The position numbers and the translations under genes were made by a program. From Mycolicibacterium pulveris (GTDB lineage: Bacteria; Actinomycetota; Actinomycetes; Mycobacteriales; Mycobacteriaceae), in NCBI RefSeq assembly GCF_010725725.1, contig NZ_AP022599.1, forward strand, positions 1,488,001 to 1,552,000: a stretch of DNA of 64,000 nt, in the 5' to 3' direction. This document shows, piece by piece, positions 127 through 24,414 of this stretch; the stretch's first letter is position 1; every line of letters starts with the position of its first letter. The notes below the pieces were generated by a model. The model was not told the origin of the DNA and did not search any database. It was given only the letters and a program-made list of their open reading frames with translations.

Positions 127-149
127 AGTACACTGATTACTATGATTTC
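127..149 (+). promoter_or_regulatory. operator-like motif, copy 1 (diverged)
   Basis: AT-rich stretch in very GC-rich DNA. It contains CACTGATTACTATGAT and matches the copy at 24392-24414 (read on the minus strand) at 15 of 23 positions by eye. The core ACTGATTA is kept. It covers the ATG at 142, which argues that the downstream gene starts at 175. Confidence 0.5.
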
Positions 150-174
150 CGCTACCCCCCACGATCAAGTGCCC

Positions 175-975
175 ATGGACGGGGTGGACGCGGCCCGGTT
201 GCAGGACATCGAGTTCGGCATCGAGGACCACGTCGCCACCATCACTTTGAACCGTCCGGACGCGCTCAACGCGGTTTCCGCTCAGATGGCCGCCGAACTG
301 GCGTGGGCGTGGCAGACGGTGCGCGACGACGACGAGGTCCATGCGGTGGTGCTGCGGGCCGCCGGCGACCGCGCGTTCTGCACCGGCGTCGACGTCAAGG
401 GGGACGGCAGCTGGTTCTTCCGGTCCAACGTGTGGAACACCTTCGACCCGGGCACGGTGATCTCGCCGAAGATCGTGCACCGCTGTTGGAAGCCGGTCGT
501 CACCGCCGTTCACGGGTTCGCCGCCGGCGGCGCGCAGTATCTGCTCAACGAGTCCGACATCATCATCTGCTCGGAGGATGCGAGTTTCTTTGACCCGCAT
601 GCCAACGCGTCGATCGTCTCGGCCCTCGAGCCGATCGGGATGCTGCACCGGGGCGTGCCGCTCGGCGAGGTGTTGCGGTGGGCGCTGATGGGCACCGAGG
701 AGCGCATCTCCGCGGCGACGGCCCTGCGTATCGGGCTGGTGTCCGAGGTCGTCGCCCGCGAGGAGCTGTGGGACCGGGCGCAGGCGATCGCGGCCTCCAT
801 CGCGGCGCGCAACCCGACCGCCATCCAGGGCAGCGTGCGGGCGATATGGGAATCTTTAGAAATGACCAGGTCGACCGCGCTGCACAACGGCATGGCCTAC
901 ACCCATATCGGCAACCCGCCGCTTGCCGAGCGCCGGGCGGCGCCGCGCCGCAACGGGCCGCCCACCTATCGGTGA
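175..975 (+). CDS. enoyl-CoA hydratase/isomerase (crotonase) family protein
   Basis: Crotonase-fold protein of about 266 residues, the usual length for a soluble beta-oxidation enzyme acting on 2-enoyl-CoA or a related acyl-CoA. Visible signatures are the oxyanion-hole stretch FCTGVDVKG and the core HGFAAGGAQYLLNESDIIICSED. The frame is open back to base 1, but 175 is preferred because the alternative ATG at 142 lies inside an operator-like motif. By eye, the two glutamates of classic hydratases are replaced (Gln in GGAQ, and no Glu after FFDP), so hydration is doubtful and another crotonase reaction is possible. Its stop is 4 bases before the next gene, suggesting co-transcription with the regulator. 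Confidence 0.8.
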   Translation: MDGVDAARLQDIEFGIEDHVATITLNRPDALNAVSAQMAAELAWAWQTVRDDDEVHAVVLRAAGDRAFCTGVDVKGDGSWFFRSNVWNTFDPGTVISPKIVHRCWKPVVTAVHGFAAGGAQYLLNESDIIICSEDASFFDPHANASIVSALEPIGMLHRGVPLGEVLRWALMGTEERISAATALRIGLVSEVVAREELWDRAQAIAASIAARNPTAIQGSVRAIWESLEMTRSTALHNGMAYTHIGNPPLAERRAAPRRNGPPTYR

Positions 976-979
976 TGCC

Positions 980-2413
980 TTGAACCCCGAACGGATCGCA
1001 CCGCGAGTCGACTCGCGCCAGGCCAAGCTGGCCGGCCGCGCAGCCGAGCAGATCGTCAATGATGTGGTCGAGCTGGGGTGGCCGGTCGGCGAGGTGCTGG
1101 GTTCGGAGACCGAACTTCTCGAGCGGTACGGGGTCAGTCGCGCGGTGCTGCGTGAGGCGATCCGGCTCGTCGAACATCAACGCGTGGCGCGGATGCGCCG
1201 CGGCACCGGGGGCGGCCTGGTGATCGACGAACCCGACGTCGACGCCGTCATCGGGCCCGCGGTCATCTACCTGCTGCGCGTCGGCGCCACCCTCAACGAG
1301 ATCTTCGACACCAGAATCCTACTCGAGGAACTCGCCGCCGAACTCGCCACGCTACGCGTCGCCGAGGCGGATCTGGCGACCCTTCGCGACGCCGTGGACC
1401 GCGAAGCCGAGGGCCGGCTCGCCGACTTCCGCGAGCTGCACACCCGGCTCGCCGCGCTGTCGGGCAACCCGGTGCTCGAGCTGTTCGTCGAAACCTTCAG
1501 CCGGGTCTGCAATTTCCACTTCGCCGACGTGGCCAGCGTGCCCCCCGACGTCGATCGCGCGGTGTTGCGGGCCCATCGCGGCATCGCGAAAGCGGTGCTG
1601 GCCAACGATCCCGCGCTGGCCCGCGAACGGATGCGCAGGCACCTGCGCGCCGAGGCCGACTTCATCCGCGCGCAGCCGGACACCGTGCAGCGCCTGGACC
1701 CCGAGGTGGCGCTCGCGGGCACGCTGGGCGACAAGCGCGGCGAAGCGCTGGCACGGCAGATCTTCGCCGAGCTCGCCAGCTCCGGTGCCACCCCGGGCAC
1801 GTTCGTCGGGTCGGAGGCCGCCCTGATGGAGAAGCACCGGGCCAGCCGCGCCGTCGTGCGCGAGGCCATCCGGATCCTGGAATACCACCGGATCGCGCTG
1901 ACCCGGCGGGGTCCCGGCGGCGGTTTGTTCGTCACCGAGCCCGACATCTCCGCCGTCGTCGACATCTTCGCGATCTATCTGCGCCGCCACGGGGTGAAGG
2001 TCCGGCACCTTGCCGACCTGCGCACCGGGCTCGAACTCGCGGTCGTCGCGCGCGCCGCCGAGACGCTGAAATCCGGCGGCGGTGATTCGGCGGCGATCGA
2101 GGCCGCGCTGCGCGCCGAGTCCGAGCACGGCCCCGCGACGGCGTTCGGCCACGGCGAGGACTTCCACTCGATGCTGGCCAGGCTGACCGGCAACCGGGCG
2201 CTGAGCCTGGTACACAGCGTCACGATGCGGCTCGGCTGGCAGTTCTTCTCCCAGTACGCAATTGAAGATCCCCGCGTGGCGGCGATGTCGCAGGAGTTGC
2301 CGTCCACGGTGGGGCCCGCCCACCAGAGCATCGCCGACGCCCTGCTGGCCGGCGACACCGAACTGGCGGTGGCACGGATGCGCGATCACATGACCGCCAC
2401 CGGCCCGACATGA
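980..2413 (+). CDS. tandem-duplicated GntR/FadR-type transcriptional regulator
   Basis: 477 residues made of two complete FadR-like units. The first winged helix-turn-helix spans about residues 20-90 (SRAVLREAIRLVEHQRVA, then RRGTGGGLVI) and is followed by an all-helical FCD-type effector domain to about 225. A second wHTH at about 250-320 (SRAVVREAIRILEYHRIA, then RRGPGGGLFV) is followed by another FCD domain. Ordinary family members are about 220-260 residues with one of each. Start chosen at TTG 980, just after the stop of the crotonase gene; ATG 923 would overlap that gene by 53 bases. It probably senses an acyl-CoA or organic acid and controls the surrounding catabolic genes. Confidence 0.85.
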   Translation: MNPERIAPRVDSRQAKLAGRAAEQIVNDVVELGWPVGEVLGSETELLERYGVSRAVLREAIRLVEHQRVARMRRGTGGGLVIDEPDVDAVIGPAVIYLLRVGATLNEIFDTRILLEELAAELATLRVAEADLATLRDAVDREAEGRLADFRELHTRLAALSGNPVLELFVETFSRVCNFHFADVASVPPDVDRAVLRAHRGIAKAVLANDPALARERMRRHLRAEADFIRAQPDTVQRLDPEVALAGTLGDKRGEALARQIFAELASSGATPGTFVGSEAALMEKHRASRAVVREAIRILEYHRIALTRRGPGGGLFVTEPDISAVVDIFAIYLRRHGVKVRHLADLRTGLELAVVARAAETLKSGGGDSAAIEAALRAESEHGPATAFGHGEDFHSMLARLTGNRALSLVHSVTMRLGWQFFSQYAIEDPRVAAMSQELPSTVGPAHQSIADALLAGDTELAVARMRDHMTATGPT

Positions 2414-2464
2414 GCTGACCCGAACACCGGCGTCCCGCCCCGGACTTTCCCCGCGGCGCAATTA

Positions 2465-2487
2465 AGGATACTGTTTTATCTGAATCT
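2465..2487 (+). promoter_or_regulatory. operator-like motif, copy 2
   Basis: AGGATACTG, 7 bases, then TGAATCT. Both halves are identical to the copy at 24392-24414 on the opposite strand, with 19 of 23 positions the same overall. It lies 16 bases before the acyl-CoA ligase start, in an AT-rich gap. The half-sites GATACT and TGAATC form an imperfect dyad with an 8-base spacer. Confidence 0.6.
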
Positions 2488-2503
2488 ATGCGCGGGAGGC
2501 TGG

Positions 2504-4078
2504 ATGCGGCATCCATGGGATCAGCGGCTCGGGGTGTGGTGGATCGCCGAGGATCACCCCGAGACACCGGCCATCGTCGAATCGCCCAGCGGCCGGACCA
2601 TGACGTTCGCCGAGTTGGCGGCCGCGGCGCACCGGGTGGCGAACGCGTTGCGCGCGCACGGGCTGCGGGTCGCTGACACCGTGGCCTACGCGCTGCCCAA
2701 CGACGTCGACGCGGTCATCTGGCAGCTGGCCACCACCGAGATCGGGCTGCGCTACCTCACCCTCAACACCGCGCTGTCCGCCGACGAGTTCACCTCGATC
2801 CTCGAGCACTCCGGCGCCTCGGCGCTGGCGGTCCACCCCGACTACCTCGACCGCTTCCACTCGGTGCCCGACGGCGCCGGGCTGCGGATCGTCGTGGGCG
2901 AACCTGCCCCCGCCGGCTGTCCTGACGGCTTTGTCAGCGAAAGCGACTTCCTGGCCGGGCAGCCGTCGACGCCGCCCGCCGACCGCACCCAGGGCGACGC
3001 GATCCGCTACTCCTCGGGCACCACGGGCAAGCCCAAGGGCATCGTGCGCCCGCTCGAGGAACGCGACCCCGGCGCGGCCGCCAACGCGCACGCGATCTTC
3101 GGGCGCGCCTTCGACTTCCGGCCGCTCGAAGGCGTTCACCTGGTGTCGACCGGTATGCACCATGCCGGATGCCAGAGCTTCTACCTCGGCGCGCTCAATG
3201 TCGGTCAGGCCCTGGCGATTCTGGGCAGGTTCGATGCCGAGGAGACGCTGACGGCGATCGAACGGCACGGCGTGACGACGGCCTACATGGTGCCCACCCA
3301 GTTCGTGCGGATGCTGAGGCTGCCGACACACGTGCGCAACAAGTACGACCTGTCGAGCCTGCGATCGGTGATCCATTCCGCCGCACCCTGCCCGCTGCAG
3401 GTGAAGAAGGACATGATGGCGTGGTGGGGTCCGGTGATCTGGGAGACCTACGGCGGCACCGAGGGCCCGGCCACCATCGCCAAACCCCACCACTGGCTGG
3501 AGAAGCCGGGCACCGTCGGCCGCCCGATCCGCGGTGTGCGGGTGCATATCCTCGATGACGAGGGTAACGCTTTGCCGCCCAACGCAATTGGCAACGTCTT
3601 TATCGAACGGATCGATGGGCAGTCATTCGAGTACCGCAACGACGCCGAACTCACCGCGTCGGTGCATCGCGGATCGGCGTTCACCATCGGCGACGTCGGG
3701 TACCTCGACGACGACGGATACCTCTTCATCTGTGACCGCGCCAAGGACATGATCATCAGCGGCGGGGTCAACATCTACCCCGCCGAAGTCGAGGGGGTGC
3801 TGCTCACCCATCCCGCGGTGGGCGACGTCGCGGTCATCGGGGTCCCCGACCCGGAGTGGGGCGAACAGGTCAAGGCCGTGGTCGAACTCGTCGACGAGGC
3901 CGAGCCGTCGGCCGAGCTGGCCGACGAGCTCATCGCGTTCTGCCGGGCCAGGCTCGCCGGCTTCAAGTGTCCGCGGTCGGTGGATTTCGAAGCGAGACTG
4001 CCCCGCAACGAAGCAGGCAAGTTGATCAAGCGCGTCGTCCGCGACGCCTACTGGGCCGAAGCCGGCAGGCGGGTCTGA
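2504..4078 (+). CDS. acyl-CoA synthetase (AMP-forming, FadD-like)
   Basis: 524-residue member of the ANL adenylating superfamily that activates a carboxylic acid to its CoA thioester through an acyl-adenylate. Visible motifs in order are the P-loop-like YSSGTTGKPKGI (about 168-179), YGGTEG (adenine binding), GDVGYLDDDGYLFICDR (ribose binding plus hinge), SGGVNIYPAEVE, and a C-terminal EAGKLIKR containing the adenylation lysine. The ATG at 2504 follows GGGAGG. It is followed after 4 bases by a TesB thioesterase and lies downstream of operator-like copy 2. The substrate is not readable; the context suggests a fatty, cyclic or aromatic acid delivered by the neighbouring Mce importer. Confidence 0.9.
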   Translation: MRHPWDQRLGVWWIAEDHPETPAIVESPSGRTMTFAELAAAAHRVANALRAHGLRVADTVAYALPNDVDAVIWQLATTEIGLRYLTLNTALSADEFTSILEHSGASALAVHPDYLDRFHSVPDGAGLRIVVGEPAPAGCPDGFVSESDFLAGQPSTPPADRTQGDAIRYSSGTTGKPKGIVRPLEERDPGAAANAHAIFGRAFDFRPLEGVHLVSTGMHHAGCQSFYLGALNVGQALAILGRFDAEETLTAIERHGVTTAYMVPTQFVRMLRLPTHVRNKYDLSSLRSVIHSAAPCPLQVKKDMMAWWGPVIWETYGGTEGPATIAKPHHWLEKPGTVGRPIRGVRVHILDDEGNALPPNAIGNVFIERIDGQSFEYRNDAELTASVHRGSAFTIGDVGYLDDDGYLFICDRAKDMIISGGVNIYPAEVEGVLLTHPAVGDVAVIGVPDPEWGEQVKAVVELVDEAEPSAELADELIAFCRARLAGFKCPRSVDFEARLPRNEAGKLIKRVVRDAYWAEAGRRV

Positions 4079-4082
4079 GCGG

Positions 4083-4919
4083 ATGACCCAGACCTCGCGC
4101 GAGGTGTTCGACGCCGACCAGGCCGCCCCGACGGCCGTCGCACAGGTCCTGCAACTCAAATCCCTTCCCCACGATCGGTTTCGGGCCGACCCGGTGAGCG
4201 TGACCGGTCGCCGCACCATCTACGGCGGACAGGTCGCCGCCCAGGCGTTGCGCGCGGCCAGCTTCACGGTGCCCGACGATCGGGTCGCGCACTCGATGCA
4301 CGCGTACTTCCTCGCTGCCGGGGATGCCAGCAGGCCGATCGAGCTGAAGGTCGAGCGCGACCGCGACGGCGGGCGCTACTCGGGTCGCCGGGTCAGCGCG
4401 GTGCAGGGCGAATCGGTGATCTTCTCGATGGTCTGCTCGTTCACCCGCCCCGCCGACGGCGCACCCGAATTCCAGGCCATCCCGATGCCCGACGTGCAGC
4501 GGCCCACCGAATTGCCGACGCATCAACTCAACGCGTCGCGCACCTTCGACCTGGAGGTGCGCGTGCCCGAGGACACCGAGCCGTGGTATCGCTGGCCGGC
4601 GCGGCTGTGGCTGCGCATCCGGGAGCGGCTGGCCGACGAGCCGAACGTGCGGGCCTGCGGCATGGTGTTCCTCTCCGACCTGTGCACCGGGCTGTCCCGG
4701 GCGCCCCAGATCGAACAGGTGGGGCTGCTGCCCAGCGTCGACCACGCGGTCTGGCTGCACCGCGACGGCGATCCCAACGGGTGGCTGCTGATCGACCTTC
4801 ATCCGCTGTCCACGTCGGGCGGGCGCGGCGTCTACACCGGTCAGATCTTCGACGAGCGAGGCGGGTTGGTGGCCAGCCTGGCCCAGGAGTCGCTGTTCGA
4901 CCTCCCGCGCGGCCGATGA
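4083..4919 (+). CDS. tesB: acyl-CoA thioesterase II (TesB family)
   Basis: 278-residue double-hotdog thioesterase that hydrolyses acyl-CoA to free acid and CoA. The N-terminal hotdog shows TIYGGQVAAQALRAA. The C-terminal hotdog carries SVDHAVWLHR, matching the SLDHAMWFH-type segment with the catalytic aspartate of TesB. Length and layout fit the family. It starts 4 bases after the acyl-CoA ligase, so the two are almost certainly co-transcribed. A ligase and thioesterase together may balance CoA use or release a shortened acid. Confidence 0.9.
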   Translation: MTQTSREVFDADQAAPTAVAQVLQLKSLPHDRFRADPVSVTGRRTIYGGQVAAQALRAASFTVPDDRVAHSMHAYFLAAGDASRPIELKVERDRDGGRYSGRRVSAVQGESVIFSMVCSFTRPADGAPEFQAIPMPDVQRPTELPTHQLNASRTFDLEVRVPEDTEPWYRWPARLWLRIRERLADEPNVRACGMVFLSDLCTGLSRAPQIEQVGLLPSVDHAVWLHRDGDPNGWLLIDLHPLSTSGGRGVYTGQIFDERGGLVASLAQESLFDLPRGR

Positions 4920-4929
4920 GCGCCGCGAA

Positions 4930-4952
4930 ACTATTCCCTAAATAAGTATCCT
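4930..4952 (-). promoter_or_regulatory. operator-like motif, copy 3
   Basis: Read on the minus strand it begins AGGATACT and continues TATTTAGGGAAT, matching the 24392-24414 copy at 16 of 23 positions (better with a one-base shorter spacer). It lies 17 bases before the ATG at 4970. The sequence TAGGAT at 4958-4963, six bases before that ATG, could be a -10 box for a leaderless transcript, so a bound repressor would sit over the promoter. Confidence 0.5.
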
Positions 4953-4969
4953 TTAGTTAGGATCGGTTC

Positions 4970-6061
4970 ATGGTCAGAGCGGACGCGGCGTGCGGGGATG
5001 CGTCGGTCGTCACCGCCGAGACCCCGTTCCTTCCCGACGACGACGCCTTTCACCGCTCTCCCGACGACAATCCGTTCTGGGCCGAGACCACGTGGTGGTC
5101 GTTCAACGTGCCCGAACGCAAGCTCGGCGGGTGGCTGCACGCACAGTTCAACACCAACCGCGGCACGGTGACGTGGCGGGTCTATGTCTGGGACCCCCGC
5201 GGCGCGGACCCGGAGCAGTTGCGTTACTTCCGCATGGAAACCGACGTGCCGATGCGGGATCTGGCGCCCGACCTGCGCGACATCGCCATCCCGGGCGGTG
5301 GGTTCAGCGTCCGGATGCTGCGTCCGCTGCACGATTACCGCATCGAATACAGCGATCCCGCAGCGGGTTTCGCGGTGCACCTGGACTTCGAAGGGGTGCA
5401 TCCACCGCGGCGGTTCACCCCGGGTGAGCCGCCCTTCATGGAGCACACCCACCTCGATCAGCTGGGGCACGTGACGGGCGAGCTGGTGCTCTCCGGGGAA
5501 CGCATCCCCATCGACTGCTACTCGGTGCGGGACCGGTCGTGGGCCCCCCGCGGCGCACCCAAGCGCACGGGTGACAAACCGGCCGCCGCACCGACGAACC
5601 GGGTGCGGCATCCCGGCGGACCGCGCTGGCGGGAAATCGAGCGCGAGCGCGGAAGAGGGCGAATTCAGTACATCTTCGGGCACGCCGGCGCCGACGTCGG
5701 GTTCCTCGGCTTTGTGCGGGTCGCCGACGGTGACGCCGGGGGGTGGTCACCGCTCAACCACGGCTGGCTGCTGGCCGACGGACACTTCGAGCGGCTGGAC
5801 AAGTCGGCCAGCGTGATGAAGAACTACCGCGATCCCCGCACCGGCTGGAGCGACCACATGGAGCTTCGGCTCACCGACCTGACCGGCCGCACGCTGGATG
5901 TCGAGGGCCACAGCGTCAGCCACATCTGCGAACGCGGAGGCGGCAGCACCGCGCTGATGCGCTGGGAATTGGGCGGCCGCATCGGGTGGGGCGAAGACCA
6001 AGACATCTGGCACCCAAAGCATTTCGCAAGGATGCTGGAAGCCCTGCAGGCCGTGCGGTGA
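4970..6061 (+). CDS. DUF7064/DUF7065-like protein (CrtC/AttH-type lipocalin-like fold)
   Basis: 363 residues, soluble, without a signal peptide or membrane segment. The pattern, with a WWSFNVPERKLGGWL opening, DCYSVRDRSWAPRG in the middle and a second half containing INHGW-like and MELRLTDLTGR strands, resembles the two beta-barrel DUF7064/7065 proteins often found beside acyl-CoA enzymes in actinobacteria. The assignment is from memory of the family and is tentative. The gene starts new control (operator-like copy 3 upstream) and runs into the CoA-transferase gene 22 bases downstream. No reaction can be assigned. Confidence 0.6.
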   Translation: MVRADAACGDASVVTAETPFLPDDDAFHRSPDDNPFWAETTWWSFNVPERKLGGWLHAQFNTNRGTVTWRVYVWDPRGADPEQLRYFRMETDVPMRDLAPDLRDIAIPGGGFSVRMLRPLHDYRIEYSDPAAGFAVHLDFEGVHPPRRFTPGEPPFMEHTHLDQLGHVTGELVLSGERIPIDCYSVRDRSWAPRGAPKRTGDKPAAAPTNRVRHPGGPRWREIERERGRGRIQYIFGHAGADVGFLGFVRVADGDAGGWSPLNHGWLLADGHFERLDKSASVMKNYRDPRTGWSDHMELRLTDLTGRTLDVEGHSVSHICERGGGSTALMRWELGGRIGWGEDQDIWHPKHFARMLEALQAVR

Positions 6062-6083
6062 TCGACTTGGACAGGAGCGACAG

Positions 6084-7292
6084 GTGACCGGACCATTCGA
6101 AGGCGTTCGTGTGGTGGAGGTCGCCTCGTGGACCTTCGTTCCCGGCGCCGGTGCCATCATGGCCGATCTCGGCGCCGATGTGATCAAGGTCGAACCGCCG
6201 GACGGGGATCCACAGCGGGCGCTTCGCAACGCCATCAACGCCGACGATTCCAGCCCGAATCCGTTTCTGCACGTGCCTAATCGGGGTAAGCGCAGCATCA
6301 CCTTGAACCTCACGAGCCAGGCCGGCCACGACACGCTGCTGAAACTCACCAAGAGCGCGGACGTGTTCCTGACCAGCTACCTGCCGAAGGTCCGCACCAA
6401 ACTCGGCATCGACGTCGACGACCTGCGCGGCGAGCACTCCCGTCTCATCTACGCTCGCGGAACAGGTTGGGGCACTTCGGGTCCGATGGCCGACGCCGGT
6501 GGCTTCGACTCGGCTGCGGCCTGGTCGGCCGCCGGCGTGCAGCACAAGCTCACCGAACCCGGCGCCCAATCGCCTGCCGCGCAGCCCGCCGCGTTCTACG
6601 ACCTGCAGGGCTCGAGCGCGATCGCGGGGGCCGTGGCGATGGCCCTGTACCGGCGGGAGCGAACCGGCGAGGGCGGGGTGGTCGACGTTTCGCTGTTGAA
6701 CACCGGCATGTGGACGATGAGCCCCGACCTGGCCGCCGCCGCCGCCGGGTCCGGTGAACTGCCGAGGCCCAACCGGTTTGACGCCCCCAACCCGATCGTC
6801 AACCTCTACCGCACCGCCGACGATCGGTGGCTGAACCTGGTGTGCCTGCAGGCCGACCGGTTCTGGGGCGAGTTGTGTGAGCTGATCGGCAGGCCGGAGC
6901 TGGCCGACGACGAGCGGTTCCACGACGGAGTTTCGCGGTTCGTCAACCGGGAGGCCTGTGTCGCCGAGCTGGACAAGACGTTCGGTGCACGCACGATGGA
7001 CGAGTGGAAGTCGGTGCTGTCGGGTTTCTCCGGAGTGTGGGCGCCCGCAGCGACTTTCGAGGAAGTGTGTGAGAACCCGCAGGTCGCCGAGAACGGCTAC
7101 CTGCCCGCCGTCGCGGGCAACGACGGCCGGGAATTCCGGCTGGTGTCACCCCCGTATCAGTTCGACGGTGTCCCAGGAGCACCGGCCGGGCCCGCACCCG
7201 AACTCGGGCAGCACACCGAAGAGGTGCTGCTGGAATCCGGTTTGGACTGGGACGAGATCAGCGCGCTGCGCGACAGCGGAGCCCTGGATTGA
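6084..7292 (+). CDS. family III CoA-transferase (CaiB/BaiF)
   Basis: 402-residue enzyme that moves CoA between carboxylic acids. The N terminus (GVRVVEVASWTFVPGAGAIMADLGADVIKVE) is the typical CaiB/BaiF opening, followed by GKRSITLNL. The aspartate in FYDLQG is the likely covalent aspartyl-CoA residue. The C-terminal PYQFDGV and ELGQHTEEVL are also typical. The GTG start at 6084 follows AGGAGCGACAG. It would let the pathway activate its substrate from an existing CoA ester without ATP, complementing the upstream ligase. Confidence 0.9.
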   Translation: MTGPFEGVRVVEVASWTFVPGAGAIMADLGADVIKVEPPDGDPQRALRNAINADDSSPNPFLHVPNRGKRSITLNLTSQAGHDTLLKLTKSADVFLTSYLPKVRTKLGIDVDDLRGEHSRLIYARGTGWGTSGPMADAGGFDSAAAWSAAGVQHKLTEPGAQSPAAQPAAFYDLQGSSAIAGAVAMALYRRERTGEGGVVDVSLLNTGMWTMSPDLAAAAAGSGELPRPNRFDAPNPIVNLYRTADDRWLNLVCLQADRFWGELCELIGRPELADDERFHDGVSRFVNREACVAELDKTFGARTMDEWKSVLSGFSGVWAPAATFEEVCENPQVAENGYLPAVAGNDGREFRLVSPPYQFDGVPGAPAGPAPELGQHTEEVLLESGLDWDEISALRDSGALD

Positions 7293-7299
7293 AGCCATG

Positions 7300-8094: not shown

Positions 8095-8210
8095 CCGATG
8101 ATCCGTCCTCGCCGGCTCGCACTGTGTGAGGCGAACCCATTGCCCGCCTTCCAATTACCTAACTGATTGTACTCAACCCAGGACCCACAGGAGGATTCTC
8201 AATGAGGTTG

Positions 8211-16495: not shown

Positions 16496-17547
16496 TTGCA
16501 GTCCCCGAAGTACGGTGGCAGGTTGAATTGCTTGGCGCGACCGCTGATCGCGCAGATGAACGAGTCGATCATCGACCCCCCGGTGGAGGTGAAGTCGAAC
16601 TCGTTACCGTTTCCGGTCGCGTTGGCGAAGTTGCGGACAGGCAGCGGCAGCAGCTGAAGCGTGCTGCGCAACAACGCATCGTTGCGGTGGACCGCGCTGA
16701 GCATGCCGTCGAGGTTGGCCATCAGTTCGTCGATCCGCTGCCGGTCGTCGACCAGCACCGGGCGCAGCTCGTTCACCAGCTTCGTGGTGGCGTTGATCAG
16801 CCGCACCACCAGTTCCCTGCGCGCCGCCAGGTCGCCGAGGACCTCGTGGCTCTGATGGATCAGCAGGCCCAGGCTGTGCTGTTGGTCGCCGAGCAGCTCG
16901 GCCACCCGCTCGGTGCTGCGCAGCAGGTCGTAGATCTGATCGCGGCGCGAGGCGATCACCGACGACAGGTGGCCGATGTTGTCGAGCGCCTGCGGAAGCA
17001 CCTCGGGGGCACCCTGCAACTGCGTCGACAGCGTCGTCATCGACTGCGCGATCTTCTCGGCGTCCACGGCCTCGAACGTGGTGGTGGCGTCCTGCAGAGC
17101 GGATTGCAGGTCGTAGGGAACCTCGGTGTTGGCCAGCGGGATTCGCCGATCCGTCAGCGGCTGCGAGCCTGCCGGCTGCACGTCGACGTAACGTGCGCCA
17201 AGCAGCGTCGTGAGCTTGATCGAGGCCCTGGTGGCCGAGCCCATCGGCACGTCGTCGTCGATCTCCAGACCGACCGCCACGTGGTCACCGGCCAGCCGCA
17301 TGCTCTTGACGCGACCGACGTGCACGCCGGCGACCGTCACCTGGTCGCCCACGCTCAAACCGGCCGACTGCGCGAACTCGGCGATGTAGACGTCCCTGCC
17401 GAGCCCGAGGCGCCCCAGGCCCAGCGCGCCGCCCAGCGCCAGGCCGAGGACCAGCACCGCGATCAAGCCGAGGCGCAGCTTGCTGTAGGAATCGATGGGT
17501 CGGCCGGTCCGAATCTTCGCGTTCGCAGGGTTTCTCATCATCGTCAC
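16492..17547 (-). CDS. mceC: MceC, mce operon 1
   Basis: 351 residues. Membrane anchor at about 25-45, MCE domain (AGLSVGDQVTVAGVHVGRVK), long helical part, and the tail CAISGRAKQF...GDCK that is kept in the second MceC. GTG at 17547 overlaps the mceB stop in the GTGA arrangement used in this operon; the two ATGs at 17541 and 17538 are alternatives. The track of open frame before it overlaps mceB and is not used. Confidence 0.9.
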   Translation of the reverse strand: MTMMRNPANAKIRTGRPIDSYSKLRLGLIAVLVLGLALGGALGLGRLGLGRDVYIAEFAQSAGLSVGDQVTVAGVHVGRVKSMRLAGDHVAVGLEIDDDVPMGSATRASIKLTTLLGARYVDVQPAGSQPLTDRRIPLANTEVPYDLQSALQDATTTFEAVDAEKIAQSMTTLSTQLQGAPEVLPQALDNIGHLSSVIASRRDQIYDLLRSTERVAELLGDQQHSLGLLIHQSHEVLGDLAARRELVVRLINATTKLVNELRPVLVDDRQRIDELMANLDGMLSAVHRNDALLRSTLQLLPLPVRNFANATGNGNEFDFTSTGGSMIDSFICAISGRAKQFNLPPYFGDCK

Positions 17548-18617
17548 CGGCACTTCTGGGTGTAGGTCAGCCGATCCTCGGGGGTGCCCTCGCGCACGAT
17601 CGCGTGGATGAGGCTGTCGATGCGGGGAAACTGCGTGACGGTGAGATTGCATGCGTAAATGTCCAGATACGCCCCGCCCTGGCTGAAGCGGGCCATGCCC
17701 TTGAGCATCAGCGGGGTGTTGAACGCCATGTATTCGAAGCCCTGCTTGTCCTCCATGAAGTGCTTGGCGAAGCCGGGTTCGCGGGCCAGCCACTCCCTCA
17801 AGTCCGGCTGGACGTCGTCGATGATGTTCGCCAGCCGCTGGCCCACAATCGAGGTCTGATCGATCGAGTCTACGAATTCGGCACGGCGGGCGGCGAATCC
17901 ATCGAAGACCATCTCCGCGGAGTAGATGGTTGTGCGCAGGGCGTCGTCGCGGTCGGCCAGCGAGGCGACGACGCTGTTCAGATGGGTCAGCACGCCGTCG
18001 AGGATCGCGTCGGTGCCGGAATAGGACTCGGCAAGACGGGTGGTCTCGGAGATCATGGTCGCGATCGCGCCGGTGTCGCCCTGCAGGGACCGCACGATCG
18101 CGGTGGTGAGGTTGTCGACCTGCGCGGGATTCAGCAGCGCGAACAGCGGTTCGAAGCCGTTGAGCAATTGGGAGATGTCGAAGGACGGCTCGGTGCGTTC
18201 GACGGGGATCACCGCACCGGCCGGGAGCACGCGCGGAACGCCGTAGTCGCCGAGGGACAGCCCGAGGTAACGCTGGCCGATGATGTTCTGGTAGATGATG
18301 CCGGCCTTGGTGTTTCCGTACAGCACCTGTTCGGACTGCACCCGGAAGTCCACCTTCGCGGTGGTGCCGTCGAGCGCGATGGCGTCGACGCGACCCACCT
18401 TGACCCCGGCCATACGCACCTCGTCACCGACCTTGAGCCCCGAGGCATCGGTGAAGATCGCGCTGTAGCTGCGGGTCTCGCCTGCGACGTTGCGCTGCAA
18501 CGTGACGAACACGGTCCAGATCAGGGCGAGGCAGACGGCGAGGAAGACGGTCAGCCCGAGCAGGGGGCGGCGGTACTTGCTCAGAAACGTTCCGACGGAG
18601 GTTTCCGGCGACTTCAC
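17544..18617 (-). CDS. mceB: MceB, mce operon 1
   Basis: 357 residues. Membrane helix at about 18-38, MCE domain (ASGLKVGDEVRMAGVKVGRV) and the region IIGQRYLGLSLGD, V(I)PVERTEPSFDISQLLNGFEPLF that is nearly identical in the MceB at 54558. C terminus ends YTQKCR. GTG 18617 overlaps the mceA stop by four bases. Confidence 0.92.
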   Translation of the reverse strand: MKSPETSVGTFLSKYRRPLLGLTVFLAVCLALIWTVFVTLQRNVAGETRSYSAIFTDASGLKVGDEVRMAGVKVGRVDAIALDGTTAKVDFRVQSEQVLYGNTKAGIIYQNIIGQRYLGLSLGDYGVPRVLPAGAVIPVERTEPSFDISQLLNGFEPLFALLNPAQVDNLTTAIVRSLQGDTGAIATMISETTRLAESYSGTDAILDGVLTHLNSVVASLADRDDALRTTIYSAEMVFDGFAARRAEFVDSIDQTSIVGQRLANIIDDVQPDLREWLAREPGFAKHFMEDKQGFEYMAFNTPLMLKGMARFSQGGAYLDIYACNLTVTQFPRIDSLIHAIVREGTPEDRLTYTQKCR

Positions 18618-19969
18618 GGGCCGTTCACTCCTTCCGGCTGGGCGGGGGCTGGCAGGGGCGCCTCGGCGGGCAGCGGCGCCGGTGCCCCGGGGTCGGGAAC
18701 GACGTGGATCGTGTTGCCGCGGGCGACCGGGCCGAGCAGCAGCTCTGAGGCGACGTTGGCGTCCGGGCCGAGCAACTCGGCGAGCTGCGCGCGCTCCTCG
18801 GGGCTGCCGACCGGGCCCACATTGCCGCCCGGTGGCTGGTAGTTGCGCGGATCCAGCGGGGCGGGTAGCACCGGCGGGTCGGCGGTGAGCGGGGCGTTAT
18901 GGCAGCTGGGGCCCTCGAGCGCGCCGTAGCGCGGGCAGTCCTGGCGGGTGTACATCTTGTTCGGCGTGAAGACCAACATGAACTTACCGACCGCCATGTT
19001 CTTGTCTTCATGCCAGACATGGTCGAAGAACCGGTTGGTGACGTCGTTGATGCGCGTGACGATGGGTGCGAAAGCGCCTGCGCCGTCGGCCATCACACCC
19101 ATCACCGGGGACAGCTGGGTGGTGATCACGATGATGCGGTCCATGTGGTTCTCGAACGACGTCCCGATCTCCCCGAACGTGGCGTGCCCGGCGGACAGGA
19201 AGTGTGCCAGCTGCTGACGCTCTTCGGCCAGTGTGCGCATCGGCACCACCGCGCTGTGCACCGCGTCGAGCAGATCCGGCGAAGTGCGCTGCAGGCCCTG
19301 CAGCGCGTCGGAGACCACCGCGAGCGTGGCCTCGGTGCCGTCGTCGGCCATCACCCGGTTGAGTTCGTCGACGATGCGCTTGGCCCCGCCGCCGGCCCGT
19401 TCGATCTCGTCGCCGCGACCGCTCGTGGCCTCGGCGACGGCGGCCAGCACGCCAACGGAGTCGGTGGACCCCGGCCTGCCCGCGGCGGCGAGCACCTCGC
19501 GCAGCTTGGTCAGCGCCGTCTGGAACTGCACCGTGGCCAGGCTGTCGTCCTGGCGGATCTGCGCGCCGGGCTTCAGTGCGGGTCCGGAGCCGTTGTCCAC
19601 CAGCTGAATCGACGACACCGCAAACACGTTGCCCGGCACCACCCGGGCGGTCACGGTGGCCGGGATGGCGCGCGCGAAGTGCGGGTCGAGGCTCACCTCG
19701 ACCCGGTTGTCGCCACCGTCGGCGGCTGGGATCACGCCCTCGACGGTGCCGACCAGCGCGCCGCGGAATTTGACGTCGGAACCCTTCGGCAGGCCGTCGC
19801 CGACATTGGTGAGCAGCGCAATGACACCGACGCGACCGGAGAACGCTCCTTCGGACTTGGCGATCGCGGCGGCGGCCAGGAGCAGGGCGCCGAGCAGTAC
19901 CGCGATCCCGCGCAGCAGCAGCCGGCCCTGCGACACCGGCGCTGAGGCGGATTCGAAGTTCGGCAACAT
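18614..19969 (-). CDS. mceA: MceA, mce operon 1
   Basis: 451 residues from ATG 19969, which sits 2 bases after the yrbEB stop. The upstream open frame lies within yrbEB and is discounted. Layout: membrane helix about 18-40, MCE domain (NVGDGLPKGSDVKFRGALVG), helical needle part, then a proline-rich tail with GGNVGPVGSPEERAQL and LLLGPVARG. The same tail motifs recur in the MceA at 55610. Confidence 0.92.
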   Translation of the reverse strand: MLPNFESASAPVSQGRLLLRGIAVLLGALLLAAAAIAKSEGAFSGRVGVIALLTNVGDGLPKGSDVKFRGALVGTVEGVIPAADGGDNRVEVSLDPHFARAIPATVTARVVPGNVFAVSSIQLVDNGSGPALKPGAQIRQDDSLATVQFQTALTKLREVLAAAGRPGSTDSVGVLAAVAEATSGRGDEIERAGGGAKRIVDELNRVMADDGTEATLAVVSDALQGLQRTSPDLLDAVHSAVVPMRTLAEERQQLAHFLSAGHATFGEIGTSFENHMDRIIVITTQLSPVMGVMADGAGAFAPIVTRINDVTNRFFDHVWHEDKNMAVGKFMLVFTPNKMYTRQDCPRYGALEGPSCHNAPLTADPPVLPAPLDPRNYQPPGGNVGPVGSPEERAQLAELLGPDANVASELLLGPVARGNTIHVVPDPGAPAPLPAEAPLPAPAQPEGVNGP

Positions 19970-19971
19970 CG

Positions 19972-20829
19972 TCAGCCACCCAGCCTTGCGCCCGACCCGA
20001 TGCCCCAAAGCCCGATCGTCAGTAGCAGGTTCGCGATGATCATGACCGAGATGCTTGCCCGCATGGCACGCCCGGCCGCGGTCCCGACCCCTTGGGGCCC
20101 GCCCGCGGCGAAGTAACCGTAATAGCACTGAATGGTCGACGTGATGATGACGAAGACAATCGCCTTGCACACCGAGTAGAAGATGTCCGTGCCGGTCAAC
20201 ACCAACCGGAAGTAGTGCTCGAACGACCCCGCCGACAGCCCACCGGCGAAGGTGACGATGGCCTGCACCGTCGCGTAGTTGACCACCAGGCACAGGATGT
20301 ACAGCGGGATGATCGCCACCACCGACGCCAGCAACCGGGTGGTGATCAGGTACGGAATCGGCCGGATCGCAAGCGATTCCATCGCGTCGATCTCCTCGGA
20401 GATGCGCATCGAACCGAGCTGCGCGGTGAATCGGCAGCCCGCCTGCGCGGCGAAGGCCAACGCCGCCATGACGGGGGCCAGTTCGCGCGTCGACACCGTC
20501 GACGACAGCAGGCCCGCGGCCGGTTCCATGCCGAGCAGGTGAAGTGCCTCGAGGCCCTCGATGCCCACGATCGCCCCGGCCGTCGCACCGAGCAGGATGA
20601 TCACCCACGCCGTGCCGCCGCCCACCACGACGGAGCCGTTGCCCCAGGTGACGTCGGACAGGATCGCCAAGAAGCTCTTCCGGTACCGGGCCAGCGTCAC
20701 CGGAATGCCGGCCACCGCGCGCCAGAAGAACGTCAGCATGTGGCCGAGCCGCGCGCCGAGCCCGGCCACCGACTCCGTGGCCGACACCAGCGGCCGAACA
20801 CCGCGCGGGTAGTACGGTGCCGCCGCCAT
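19972..20829 (-). CDS. yrbEB: YrbEB permease, mce operon 1
   Basis: 285-residue integral membrane protein of the MlaE/YrbE family with about five to six helices. It is the permease partner of YrbEA in the ABC-type Mce lipid importer. Conserved family segments include AAQAGCRFTAQLGSMRISEE, IDAMESLAIRPIPYL and the C-terminal GVGTAAGRAMRASI. ATG 20829 overlaps the yrbEA stop by one base (TGATG). The ATPase (MceG/MkL) is not in this window, as usual. Confidence 0.92.
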   Translation of the reverse strand: MAAAPYYPRGVRPLVSATESVAGLGARLGHMLTFFWRAVAGIPVTLARYRKSFLAILSDVTWGNGSVVVGGGTAWVIILLGATAGAIVGIEGLEALHLLGMEPAAGLLSSTVSTRELAPVMAALAFAAQAGCRFTAQLGSMRISEEIDAMESLAIRPIPYLITTRLLASVVAIIPLYILCLVVNYATVQAIVTFAGGLSAGSFEHYFRLVLTGTDIFYSVCKAIVFVIITSTIQCYYGYFAAGGPQGVGTAAGRAMRASISVMIIANLLLTIGLWGIGSGARLGG

Positions 20830-21677
20830 CAGAGCGATGCCTTCGGAAACAGCAGGACATACATCTGGGTGAACACGACGTTGGTGATCATCAGCAGCAG
20901 AATCGACGCCACCACAGTGGCGTTCACCGAGTTCGCCACCCCGGCGGGGCCGCCTTTGGTGGTCAACCCCTTGTCGCACGCGACGATCGCGACGATCGCC
21001 GCGAACACCACCGCCTTGATCAAGGTCAGCACCATGTCGCCGACCGTCGCGAACGACGCGAACGTCATCACGAAACTGCCGGGCGCCCCGGCCTGCGCGA
21101 AAGTGTTGAACAGGTAGCCGGCCAGGAACCCGATGAAACAGACCAACCCGGTCAACGCGACACCGACGACCATCGCCGCGGCCAGCCGTGGCACGACCAG
21201 CCGGCGGATCACCGAAATCCCCATCACCTCAAGCGCGTCGACCTCGTCGCGGATGGTTCGCGACCCCAGATCCGCGCAGATCGCCGAGCCGACCGCCGCC
21301 GCCATCAGCAGCGCGGCGACCAGCGGTGCGCCTTGGCGGATGACGGCCAGGCCGCTGGCGGCGCCGGCCAACGACGTCGCACCGACCTGCCCCGCGAGCA
21401 GCGCGAACTGGATCTGCAGCGTCACCCCGATGGGGATGGCGACGCACATGGTCGGCAGCATCGCCGTCGACGCCATGAAGGCGGCCTGCTCGACGAACTC
21501 GCCGAGCGGAAAGCGCCATCGCAGGATGTCGAGAATGAGGTACTGCAGGGCCCGCAGGCCGAGGATGCACTGACTGCCAACGGTTTCCAGGGAGGCGATG
21601 GGATGCCTCCTGGCGTAGCCCTTCGTCCACTCGGTGATGTCACCGACTGGCGAAGGCATCTGCCCCGAAGTCACCAT
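20829..21677 (-). CDS. yrbEA: YrbEA permease, mce operon 1
   Basis: 282-residue MlaE/YrbE-family permease. Signatures: LPTMCVAIPIGVTLQIQFAL, GQVGATSLAGAASGLAVIRQ, AICADLGSRTIRDEVDALEV and KGLTTKGGPAGVANSVN. It forms the inner-membrane base of the Mce importer with YrbEB. Only 29 bases separate it from the 94-residue gene upstream, with no visible promoter there, so it probably belongs to a transcript starting before the acyl-CoA dehydrogenase at 24376. Confidence 0.93.
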   Translation of the reverse strand: MVTSGQMPSPVGDITEWTKGYARRHPIASLETVGSQCILGLRALQYLILDILRWRFPLGEFVEQAAFMASTAMLPTMCVAIPIGVTLQIQFALLAGQVGATSLAGAASGLAVIRQGAPLVAALLMAAAVGSAICADLGSRTIRDEVDALEVMGISVIRRLVVPRLAAAMVVGVALTGLVCFIGFLAGYLFNTFAQAGAPGSFVMTFASFATVGDMVLTLIKAVVFAAIVAIVACDKGLTTKGGPAGVANSVNATVVASILLLMITNVVFTQMYVLLFPKASL

Positions 21678-21706
21678 TGACCCCTCGGATCGCTACCTAT
21701 TGTTCC

Positions 21707-21991
21707 TCAACGCCACTGGGGACGCCGGTCGGATGGCGGATCGACCAGTGACCCGAACCGGCGGTTGAAGGACTCGTTCGTGCGCTGCTCCTGTCGATAC
21801 CGGTCGCCGCTGGACTTCAGCAGTTCGATGCGCTGTTCGAGGCGTCGAATGCGGTCCGTGTCCGGGCTGGCCTGCTGGCGCAGCCCGTCCAGCTCCGCTG
21901 TGGCCGCGGCCAGTTCCTCCGACAGCCGCGCGGCGACCTCGCCGAACGTCAGCAGGTCGTAGTCGGCGGTGTCGGGCCGCGGTTCGGTCAT
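21707..21991 (-). CDS. small coiled-coil protein of unknown function
   Basis: 94 residues, charged, with a strongly helical, coiled-coil-like middle (ARLSEELAAATAELDGLRQQ, then RRLEQRIELLKSSGDRYRQE). No membrane segment or known motif. It overlaps the amidohydrolase stop by four bases and precedes yrbEA, so it is tightly built into the operon. It could be an adaptor or a subunit of the neighbouring enzyme; nothing in the sequence decides. Confidence 0.7.
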   Translation of the reverse strand: MTEPRPDTADYDLLTFGEVAARLSEELAAATAELDGLRQQASPDTDRIRRLEQRIELLKSSGDRYRQEQRTNESFNRRFGSLVDPPSDRRPQWR

Positions 21992-23148
21992 CGGCCGTTG
22001 CCGAAGCGCAGCAGTTCGCGTGCGTTGAGTTCCACGATGCGGTGGACGTCGTCGTCCGGAACGTCAAGGAGGTTCTCGCTCATCCGTTTACGGCTGTTGG
22101 GCCAGTTCGAGTCGGAGTGCGGATAGTCGACCTCGACGAGGATGTTCTCGACACCGATCGCGTCCCGGGAGTTCACGCCGTGCTCGTCGTCGATGAAGCA
22201 GCCCCAGAAGTGCTTGCGGAAAAGATCCGACGGCCGATCCTCGCGGCTGATGTTCTGATACCAGCGGTGCCGCTCCCAGGTGTAGTCCAGCCGTTCCAGC
22301 AGGTAGGGGATCCAGCCGATGCCGCCCTCGGAAAGCATGAACTTCAGGTTCGGATGTCGTTGCAACACACCGGAGAACACCAGGTCCGCGGTGCTCCACA
22401 TCAGGTTGGTGGAGAACGTCGCGATCGCCACCGCGAACGGCGCGTTGGGGTCCATGGAGCCGGTGGCGAAGGAGAAGCCGGGCACGTAGCTGCCCGAACC
22501 GAAGTGCAGGCACACCGGCATGTCCGCGGCCTCGAGGGCGTCCCACAGCTTCTCCCAGTGCGTCGGGTCGTGGAACGAGGGCAGGCCGAGCGGCACGGGG
22601 CTGTCGGGAAATGACACCGCCCTGGTCCCGATCTGGGCCAACCGCTCGACTTCGCGGGCCGCCAACTCCACATCCCAGGTGGGCAGAATTCCCAACGGGA
22701 TCAACCGATCCGGTGCCGTCGCGCACCACTCGTCGACCTGGAAGTCGTTCCAGGCCCGCACACATTCCAATGCGAGCGTCTTGTCCTTGGCCCGTTGGAA
22801 CACCCCGCCGCCGAATCCCGGAAACGACGGAAACGCCAGCGCGGCCTCCACGCCGTCGATGTCCATGTCGCGGACCCGCTCGACGGGGTCGTAGCAGCCC
22901 GGGATCATCTGGTCGTAGCGCACCGGTTCCATGCCGTACTCCGCGGGCGGCTTGCCGGCGACGGCGTTGAGCCCGATCTGCGGGAACAGCTGGCCTTCGT
23001 ACTGCCAGACATGGTGTCCCTCAGCCGTTTCGACGATCTGCGGGCCCTCGGCACGAAGCGCTTCTGGAAGCCGGTCCTGCCACACCCGAGGATGTTCGAT
23101 GACGTGGTCGTCGACCGAGATGATCTTCATCCAGTCTTGCAAAGGCAT
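21988..23148 (-). CDS. metal-dependent amidohydrolase family protein
   Basis: 386-residue TIM-barrel amidohydrolase of the amidohydrolase_2 type. The N-terminal ISVDDHVIEHP supplies the D-x-H motif, HFGSGSY a barrel histidine, LSEGGIGWIP and the C-terminal VEVDYPHSDSNWP the catalytic aspartate region. Relatives decarboxylate or hydrolyse cyclic and aromatic acids; the substrate here is unknown. It lies 37 bases after the acyl-CoA dehydrogenase and overlaps the next gene, linking catabolism with the Mce importer in one transcript. Confidence 0.85.
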   Translation of the reverse strand: MPLQDWMKIISVDDHVIEHPRVWQDRLPEALRAEGPQIVETAEGHHVWQYEGQLFPQIGLNAVAGKPPAEYGMEPVRYDQMIPGCYDPVERVRDMDIDGVEAALAFPSFPGFGGGVFQRAKDKTLALECVRAWNDFQVDEWCATAPDRLIPLGILPTWDVELAAREVERLAQIGTRAVSFPDSPVPLGLPSFHDPTHWEKLWDALEAADMPVCLHFGSGSYVPGFSFATGSMDPNAPFAVAIATFSTNLMWSTADLVFSGVLQRHPNLKFMLSEGGIGWIPYLLERLDYTWERHRWYQNISREDRPSDLFRKHFWGCFIDDEHGVNSRDAIGVENILVEVDYPHSDSNWPNSRKRMSENLLDVPDDDVHRIVELNARELLRFGNGR

Positions 23149-23185
23149 GGCATCTCCTTCGACTCCGAAACCGGGTCCTTGGGGG

Positions 23186-24376
23186 TCATCGCGGCAATCC
23201 CAGTGCGCGTTCGGCGATCAGGTTGCGGAGCACCTCGTTGGTGCCGCCCGCGATGGTGAAGGCCCGCCCGTAGAGGAAGGCGTCCTGCCACCATCCGTCG
23301 TCGTGCACCTGGGCGTCGCCCTCGATACGCACCCCGTCGTGGCCCTGCAACTGCACCCCGTACTCGTGCAGGGCCAGGTTGATCTCGCTGAACAGGATCT
23401 TCGACACCGGCGCGTCGGCGACGTCTCCGGTGCCGTGCAGCGCCCTGCTGTCGCCGAACGCCGAAACCAGCGCGTTCACGTGCACGTCGGCGACGAAACC
23501 GCCGATCGCCTGGCGCACGTCGTCGCGTTCGAGCGCGGGGCGGCCGTCCCGCCGCACGTCATTCGCGAGGCGCACCAACCGGTTCAGCGCCCCGAACAGC
23601 GATGCCCCGCTGCCGGCGCTGGAGCGTTCCAGCGCCAGGCTGGTGGTCGTCACCGCCCAGCCCCCGTTGACCTCGCCGATGACCTGGGTTTCGGGGATCC
23701 GCACGCCGTCGAAGAAGACCTCGTTGAAGTCGGCGGTGCCGGTGATCTCGCGCAGCGGGCGCACCGTGACGCCAGGGGTTTTCATGTCCAGCGCGAACGC
23801 CGTGATACCCGCGTGCTTGGGCGCGTCGGGATCGGTGCGGGCCAGCAGGTAGCCCCAGTCGGCGTGCTGGCCGTTGGTGGTCCACACCTTCTGCCCGTCG
23901 ACGACGAAGTGGTCCCCGTCGCGGCGCGCGCGCGTGCGCAGGCCGGCCAGATCGCTGCCGGCGTCGGGCTCGCTGAACAGCTGGCACCAGATGTGCTCGC
24001 CGGAGCGGATGCGCGGCAGGAAGTGGTCCTTCTGTGCGGTCGTACCCGAGGCGACGATCGCAGCGCCGGCGAGCAATCCGCCGCCGACCGGACCGGCCGC
24101 TCCCGCGCGGATCAGCTCGTCGGCGACAACGGACTCGTGCAGCGGATGCGCGTCTGCCAATCCCCCGTACTCGACCGGCCAGTTCACTCCCAGCAACTGC
24201 TCGCTGAAGAGAATCGCGGTCCACTTCCGCAACGCGGGAATTTCGTGGGCCTCAGGCGCCCGAACGCCGGTGCGGCTGTGGCGCGGCGGCGCATACTGGG
24301 CGGCTAGATCGCGGACCCGCATGCGCAGCGCATCCAACTCGCGGTCCTGGCCGAGATGCAAGTCGCCTCCGTCCAA
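23186..24376 (-). CDS. acyl-CoA dehydrogenase (FadE family)
   Basis: 396 residues. FAD-dependent alpha,beta-dehydrogenation of an acyl-CoA. Visible are the flavin/substrate loop CQLFSEPDAGSDLAGLRT, VDGQKVWTTNGQHADWGYLL and the C-terminal IAGGTNEVLRNLIAERALGL. The catalytic Glu of straight-chain enzymes is not evident. Start is TTG 24376; an internal ATG at 24322 is possible. It is divergent from the dehydrogenase at 24478, and in actinobacteria such pairs often form mixed heterotetramers for cholesterol-like side chains. It heads the transcript that continues into mce operon 1. Confidence 0.88.
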   Translation of the reverse strand: MDGGDLHLGQDRELDALRMRVRDLAAQYAPPRHSRTGVRAPEAHEIPALRKWTAILFSEQLLGVNWPVEYGGLADAHPLHESVVADELIRAGAAGPVGGGLLAGAAIVASGTTAQKDHFLPRIRSGEHIWCQLFSEPDAGSDLAGLRTRARRDGDHFVVDGQKVWTTNGQHADWGYLLARTDPDAPKHAGITAFALDMKTPGVTVRPLREITGTADFNEVFFDGVRIPETQVIGEVNGGWAVTTTSLALERSSAGSGASLFGALNRLVRLANDVRRDGRPALERDDVRQAIGGFVADVHVNALVSAFGDSRALHGTGDVADAPVSKILFSEINLALHEYGVQLQGHDGVRIEGDAQVHDDGWWQDAFLYGRAFTIAGGTNEVLRNLIAERALGLPR

Positions 24377-24391
24377 CCGGTTTAGTGATCA

Positions 24392-24414
24392 GATTCACCT
24401 TAATCAGTATCCTG
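24392..24414 (-). promoter_or_regulatory. operator-like motif, copy 4 (best copy)
   Basis: Read on the minus strand: AGGATACTG, ATTAAGG, TGAATCT. It lies in the divergent gap between the two acyl-CoA dehydrogenase genes, 15 bases from the minus-strand start. It contains the dyad GATACT-N8-TGAATC. Its position would let one regulator control both directions, including the transcript leading into mce operon 1. Confidence 0.6.

Follow-up and report, generated by a model that had tools for sequence, protein, structure and literature searches.

A conserved operator-like element and a tandem GntR protein as its candidate binder in an mce-linked catabolic gene cluster of Mycolicibacterium pulveris

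A catabolic gene cluster with an mce transport operon was analysed in a 64,000-nucleotide stretch of DNA from Mycolicibacterium pulveris (contig NZ_AP022599.1, positions 1,488,001 to 1,552,000; hereafter the window), in which a preliminary description had noticed one operator-like motif in front of four transcription units. The sites are likely to be operators of GntR2, a tandem GntR-FCD protein encoded within the cluster, which would repress the whole cluster and an unlinked oxygenase gene until it is released by a ligand; all of the cluster can probably be switched together. This reading was built on the sites themselves, their conservation in related genomes, their near-restriction to the cluster in the M. 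pulveris genome and the association of their core with tandem GntR genes elsewhere. The earlier proposal of one operator-like element and a single regulon is probably correct for the four units, and the regulon appears to be larger, with two more sites in the cluster and one before the oxygenase gene. A GntR regulator likewise remains likely as the binder; the two GntR proteins of the cluster are unequal candidates, and in other loci the core accompanies the tandem one.

Redefinition and conservation of the element

The motif was originally drawn as a 23-mer. Its two strong copies, at 2465-2487 (+ strand) and 24391-24413 (− strand; first placed one base off, at 24392-24414), have AGGATACTG-N7-TGAATCT in common and are identical at 19 of 23 positions. 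The weaker copies at 4930-4952 (− strand) and 127-149 (+ strand) share 16 and 15 of 23 positions with the second copy, as had been described, and only 14 each with the first. All four directly precede the genes named for them, namely those for the acyl-CoA ligase, the divergent acyl-CoA dehydrogenases (ACADs), the DUF7064/7065 protein and the crotonase. With up to three mismatches allowed, the 23-mer was found twice in the window against 0.02 matches expected from 100 shuffles. In the whole genome (5,484,749 bases), the 23-mer with N at position 9 gave 14 matches at the same stringency, against 9 for the control with the motif reversed; fewer than three mismatches were seen only in the two window copies, and the twelve matches with three were close to the control level. 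The GATACT-N8-TGAATC dyad that had been proposed was ruled out as the conserved feature because its right half is not conserved: TGAATC stood at the required distance in 5 of 59 sites (crotonase 0/14, ligase 2/15, DUF7064 0/15, ACAD 3/15).

The element was therefore redrawn from aligned intergenic regions of the genomes that carry the cluster (15 of 198 genus genomes, M. pulveris included). In all four site classes (14, 15, 15 and 15 genomes) a block of about 24 bp was kept far better than its surroundings. It consists of a near-palindromic core, AGKRYACT, and an A/T-rich arm on one side; the matrix columns read A-G-(G/T)-A-(T/C)-A-C-T for the core and then (G/A)-(A/T)-T-T-(T/A)-A-G-(c)-T-n-A-(A/T)-T. 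The element does not keep one orientation with respect to its gene. Part of the core conservation follows from the method, since the cores served as alignment anchors; the arm was not an anchor, and in the crotonase class its conservation is confounded with coding because its end overlaps the start codon. The best symmetry centre of the matrix was the core, and a second palindrome centred 11 bp away was set aside, its symmetry ranking eighth. Operators of FadR/FCD regulators are short palindromes with a GT..AC core; AGTACACT and AGTATACT fit this pattern and AGGATACT is without the left GT; the AGKRYACT core keeps GT..AC in only part of the sites.

The site before the crotonase-gntR2 operon lies at 124-148 (+ strand, matrix score 37.0), with the core AGTACACT at 127-134 ending 7 nt 5′ of the crotonase ATG and apparently carrying a leaderless-type −10 sequence, TACACT. 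Fourteen of the 15 cluster genomes have it; it was not found in G012, where the crotonase match comprised the C-terminal end only. The sites before the ligase-thioesterase unit (2462-2486, + strand, 40.4), before the DUF7064/7065 gene (4931-4955, − strand, 34.8) and between the divergent ACADs, upstream of the acad1-amidohydrolase-yrbE-mce unit (24392-24416, − strand, 39.1), were present in 15/15. The matrix was built from these four classes; the remaining two cluster sites and the oxygenase sites were outside the training set. A new, weaker site lies between gntR1 (− strand) and the aldehyde dehydrogenase gene aldh (+ strand) at 8152-8176 (− strand, 22.8) and scored at least 12 in 12 of 15 genomes, the exceptions being G027, G099 and G012. 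A further new site (− strand, 29.8) was located 7.4 kb left of the window (L083:12576-12600), between a thiolase gene (− strand) and a ChsH2-like OB-fold gene (+ strand); a left-flank site was seen in 14/15 genomes (not G012).

Scores of the six cluster sites thus ran from 22.8 to 40.4, whereas 40 dinucleotide shuffles of the 84-kb region gave nothing above 15.5. When each class was left out of the matrix in turn, it was still recovered (crotonase 16.5, ligase 34.0, DUF7064/7065 19.5, ACAD 30.1), with non-sites at or below 10.9. The redrawn 24-mer, with up to three mismatches, matched the 5.48-Mb M. pulveris genome at seven places, six of them in one 32-kb stretch (1480577-1512416), and its reversed control at two. 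The possibilities raised earlier, that the motif is common in the genome or absent before the same genes in relatives, were not borne out: the sites precede the same genes in the cluster genomes. When the genus was searched with a 17-mer taken from the site (up to one mismatch), every one of the 15 cluster genomes gave two or three matches, and 3 of the 183 others gave a single match; these three (G049, G145 and G043, scores 15.9, 15.8 and 4.8) were taken as chance on their scores alone.

A looser 24-mer search of the 15 cluster genomes gave 106 matches against 13 in the control. Counted from the list, and with contexts read for part of them, 87 lay in the cluster or its left flank, 7 before the oxygenase gene and 9 in a TetR-type palindrome, and 3 were unexplained (G039, G174:C42 and G000:540466). 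The look-alikes of the palindrome type, found in 9 of the 15 genomes including M. pulveris, were rejected as regulon members; those of L172, L173, L174 and L182 form a GAGAATA-n-TATTCTC palindrome, and the other five were judged on sequence alone. At G000:C1:3966902 (L172, score 21.2) the palindrome is perfect, GAGAATAGTATTCTC, and is most likely the operator of the adjoining TetR protein, given its location between the TetR gene and a divergent ACAD gene.

Candidate regulator

Among the scanned open reading frames of the cluster, only gntR2 (980-2413, + strand), the second gene of the crotonase operon, and gntR1 (7300-8094, − strand) encode regulators. GntR2 (477 aa) contains two GntR and two FCD stretches above the cut-off, as did two paralogs that were scanned, and GntR1 a single Pfam GntR and FCD pair. 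The two modules of GntR2 are 38% identical to each other. Each follows the FadR/FCD order, a GntR winged helix and then FCD, and the chain departs from that subfamily in holding two modules instead of one. The predicted structure reached a pLDDT of 81.9 and a pTM of 0.82 (from 11 sequences). By sequence, GntR2 matched the PDB entries 6az6, 2di3, 9jpj, 7xp0 and 6on4 (NanR), and by fold also VanR, FadR and others; no tandem chain was found among these five sequence matches and the best 50 of 963 fold matches, all of which were of single-module length. A recognition helix SR(A/S)(V/A)(L/V/F)REA(I/V/T)R was read in both modules of GntR2, of 10 named orthologs and of 17 paralogs, and this likeness of the two helices fits one shared half-site.

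The 198 genomes of the genus were searched for tandem GntR genes (E ≤ 1e-60, with 8 candidates in each genome scored). Matches were obtained in 64 genomes: orthologs (68-100% identity) in 15, M. pulveris included, and paralogs (37-45% identical) in 51, with two genomes holding both. An 18-mer, AATACAGTACACTCWATT, which contains the core AGTACACT, was found with up to one mismatch in 52 of the 198 genomes, once in each, and its reversed control in none. Among the 51 paralog genomes, 45 have it 814-1320 bp upstream of the tandem gene, and in seven paralog loci (L140, L141, L143, L151, L154, L156 and L168) it precedes a thiolase gene that is followed by the regulator gene. Three of the six paralog genomes without the 18-mer were examined (G051, G186 and G168 were left out), and their loci L136, L138 and L139 carry variant cores before an ACAD or the regulator gene. 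Seven genomes have the 18-mer and no paralog at 1e-60; all five that were examined (G048 and G113 were left out) show a thiolase gene and the start of a tandem-like gene. When the cluster matrix was run over 1.5 kb of sequence before each of 14 paralog genes, its best match fell on the conserved core in 14/14, seven times in register and seven times on the opposite strand. No separate gntR1-like match was present in the 11 paralog loci displayed. Orthologs of gntR1 were 74% identical in the two other cluster genomes tested, and nothing above 45% was found in 11 other genomes tested. Judged from these sequences, the best-supported binder of the sites is most likely the tandem GntR2 and not the single GntR1.

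A third type of tandem-GntR cluster was observed in G098 (L136:17058 and L137:3329), with a 40% identical regulator, relatives of the ACAD, aldehyde dehydrogenase and ligase genes, and two sites that belong to this core family. Mycobacterium sp. GA-2829 (L053) has an orphan gntR2 (69% identical), preceded, by eye, only by a 3′ scrap of the crotonase gene and with no site of at least 12 in 21 kb; the locus looks like a relic of a lost cluster. Its product has an arginine in place of the FCD histidine H199, which the 10 other aligned proteins retain.

Proposed mechanism

For binding, repression, the ligand and a built-in dimer, the following course is proposed. A single GntR2 chain, with its two near-equivalent winged-helix domains, would act as a built-in dimer, both recognition helices reading the AGT/ACT half-sites within AGKRYACT; the orientation would be set by contacts with the one-sided A/T-rich arm. 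Bound GntR2 would cover the −10 region, most clearly at the crotonase gene, where the core includes TACACT. As gntR2 is the next gene after the crotonase site, autoregulation is expected, and GntR2 would repress crotonase-gntR2 itself. The other repressed units in the window would be ligase-thioesterase, DUF7064/7065-CaiB, ACAD-amidohydrolase-mce, the opposite ACAD and gntR1/aldh, and outside it the unlinked MpaB/Lcp-like oxygenase gene and, on the left flank, the genes for the thiolase and the ChsH2-like protein. Binding of a pathway CoA ester or acid to the FCD domains would release GntR2. Repression over the −10 region and CoA-ester release were extrapolated from the FadR/FCD family.

A broader proposal is made tentatively and falls a little short of being probable. 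Mycobacteria may hold a family of GntR-FCD repressors with two modules in one chain, each member controlling a beta-oxidation operon of its own by way of a common operator family (AGKRYACT with an A/T arm on one side). The family would have arisen by internal duplication, independently of the double TetR Mce3R, and one branch would control an Mce-import/oxygenase regulon for a methyl-branched or isoprenoid substrate.

Unlinked oxygenase gene

The oxygenase gene was present in 14 of the 15 cluster genomes; its product scored weakly for the MPAB_Lcp_cat domain (27.3 bits, cut-off 23). In all 14, a site of the type AGG(A/G)(C/T)ACT starts 42-51 bp 5′ of the ATG, with scores of 11.8-29.1; the M. 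pulveris site is TAAAGGGCACTCATTTCGACGTTAG (19.0). The gene was matched at E ≤ 1e-120 in 41 of the 198 genomes, of which 27 have no gntR2 ortholog and served for comparison; G181 and G022 (49-50% identical), G009 (partial) and G168 (start uncertain) were all kept among the 27. In 25 of the 27 the score was 4.6 or less, and several of these sites look decayed by eye (e.g. G014 and G052). Site presence with and without gntR2 (14/14 vs 2/27) gave a Fisher value of 3e-9, kinship ignored. The pattern of co-loss is suggestive as trans evidence for gntR2.

Weighing of the explanations

Several observations weigh against GntR2 as the binder. The 15 genomes (of 198) that have the regulator are also those with the cluster, and the binder cannot be told from co-occurrence alone; the occurrence of DUF7064 in the same 15 genomes as gntR2 was rejected as evidence on the same ground, cluster and regulator being inherited together. 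The paralog sites are near-palindromic, share mainly the core and reach matrix scores of only 6.6-21.4, and kinship among the 14 paralog loci means that they do not count as independent. At the oxygenase gene, the sites of G027 and G099 (11.8) and G039 (13.9) lie below the shuffle maximum of 15.5 and rest on position, and a second place in G039, 1 kb further upstream, outscores the site itself at 17.8. A gene tree of 34 of the 41 oxygenases held four independent pairs, two pointing the same way, two showing no difference and none the opposite way; this is not significant, and with only four pairs the tree-controlled test could not have reached significance. G098 and G168, in the group without gntR2, have a tandem paralog yet no oxygenase site. 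Finally, two of the 27 genomes without a gntR2 ortholog, G153 (23.4) and G037 (25.9), keep a strong oxygenase site; no gntR2 was found in them, in a search without a positive control, and their best gntR1 matches were only 41-43% identical.

The last observation would suit a regulator encoded elsewhere, with the tandem GntR a mere neighbour of the sites. Such an arrangement is improbable, since the core accompanies tandem GntR genes in a second type of operon (45 of 51 genomes) and a third (G098), and the oxygenase site scores no more than 4.6 in 25 of the 27 genomes without a gntR2 ortholog. G153 and G037 may be recent losses of gntR2, of the kind that L053, with its cluster gone and scraps left, resembles, or may have another binder. 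About as improbable is that the single-module GntR1 binds the motif and controls the cluster while the tandem protein has another role. GntR1 is encoded in the same cluster, was 72-97% identical where found (8 of 10 named loci) and has a site directly before its gene; that site, however, has the lowest score of the six and does not reach 12 in 3/15 genomes. The same core, moreover, precedes tandem-GntR operons in G100 and G155, where no separate gntR1 match lies in the 20-kb regions and the best single relatives, 37-38% identical, are on other contigs; and the GntR1 recognition helix, SRPTLREAFR, differs from the SR[AS][VA]xREAxR of the tandem proteins. Less probable still is an unusual −10 promoter sequence read by a sigma factor. 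The cores do hold TACACT, TATCCT or TACTGT beside plausible starts, the crotonase core only 7 nt from its ATG, but a sigma-factor element would recur across the genome, whereas six of seven genome matches fell in 32 kb and, over the 15 cluster genomes, 87 of the 106 matches fell in the cluster or left flank and 19 elsewhere; the length of the conserved block and its varying strand also argue against a promoter. Binding by GntR2 is thus preferred over these alternatives.

Relation to known systems

In mycobacteria, KstR, KstR2, Mce1R and Mce2R regulate mce operons and the catabolism of lipids or steroids; their motifs differ from the AGKRYACT element, and Mce1R and Mce2R are single-module FadR-type proteins. 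Rv3060c is presumably a tandem protein beside fadE22/Rv3061c. Together with MSMEG_5201, which appears in a GntR classification (PMC2018728), it may represent the paralog group described here, with a tandem GntR gene near a double acyl-CoA dehydrogenase gene; the portions available of PMC9927256 and PMC2018728 give neither a tandem nature nor an operator or regulon for the two proteins, and the part of Table 3 consulted in PMC2018728 gives no operator for MSMEG_5201.

The closest analogue, as far as the available part of PMC11667970 describes it, is Mce3R (Rv1963c) of M. tuberculosis, an autoregulated double TetR repressor of an mce operon and lipid-metabolism genes, whose 25-bp sites are asymmetric and non-palindromic, two of them 53 bp apart before yrbE3A. 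Like Mce3R, GntR2 has two DNA-binding modules per chain and a predicted non-palindromic site of similar length, and its predicted sites precede its own operon and an mce operon. Mce3R has a TetR fold, whereas GntR2 is GntR/FCD by Pfam and by fold search and so is an analogue, not a member; the two Mce3R sites before yrbE3A contrast with single sites before many cluster units and an unlinked gene; and binding and structure are proven for Mce3R, whereas GntR2 is known here from sequence and prediction. This suggests that a two-module fusion reading non-palindromic sites arose twice in mycobacteria, from TetR (Mce3R) and from GntR (GntR2), both linked with lipid import and beta-oxidation.

The preliminary description knew the motif from no described regulator, and the literature search gave none either. 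Within its reach, which left out most subscription journals, only unrelated work was found on tandem or double GntR proteins, and no GntR regulon or operator for a Mycolicibacterium mce cluster. The present sites offer a concrete operator, a candidate binder and a short target list for such a cluster, so that regulon and substrate become testable together, and for the tandem GntR paralogs (51/198 genomes) the operator family indicates possible targets.

Cluster genes and minor observations

The crotonase gene (142-975, +; enoyl-CoA hydratase/isomerase, Pfam ECH_1) is followed, after gntR2, by genes for the acyl-CoA ligase (2504-4078, +; AMP-binding), an acyl-CoA thioesterase (4083-4919, +; 4HBT_3/4HBT_3C and Acyl_CoA_thio), the Rv3169-like DUF7065/DUF7064 protein (4970-6061, +; below the NCBIfam cut-off) and a CaiB/class III CoA-transferase-racemase family protein (6084-7292, +; CoA_transf_3). 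Beyond gntR1 lie aldh (9656-11128, +; Aldedh), the mce/yrbE transport operon (12904-21677, −; MlaD, Mce4_CUP1 and MlaE), an amidohydrolase gene (21988-23148, −; Amidohydro_2), the PimC-like acad1 (23186-24376, −) and the IpdE2/PimD-like acad2 (24478-25605, +), both ACAD assignments being below cut-offs. The enzyme set of the cluster comprises crotonases, acyl-CoA ligases, thioesterase, CaiB-type racemase/transferase, aldehyde dehydrogenase and these ACADs; further members are MaoC, a lipid-transfer-type thiolase with its ChsH2-like partner, a P450 and the mce operon.

A sterol-side-chain-like route is one scheme that would suit such genes. Oligo-isoprenoid use, in the part of PMC8538451 available, involves aldehyde oxidation, Mce import, CoA ligation, ACAD and the racemase Mcr. 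Together with the MpaB/Lcp-like oxygenase, whose domain score is weak, the gene set resembles the latter scheme or the former, and either substrate assignment would be tentative.

The other 14 cluster genomes are largely syntenic, with the thioesterase match missing in 4 and the amidohydrolase match in 6; the mce operon is reduced in G012, and G150 has an insert of about 8 kb. In M. pulveris an IS110-family transposase gene (8211-9503, −) lies between the gntR1/aldh site and the start of aldh and parts aldh from its site by about 1.5 kb; the 14 compared genomes have no insert at this place. In Mycolicibacter sp. MYC340 (L052), inserted extra cluster genes (thiolases, AveC-like) carry sites of their own at 17296-17320 (+) and 20574-20598 (−). 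A second left-flank site was seen about 6-8 kb further out in G073, G174 and G150; loci L179 and L180 belong with these extra sites.

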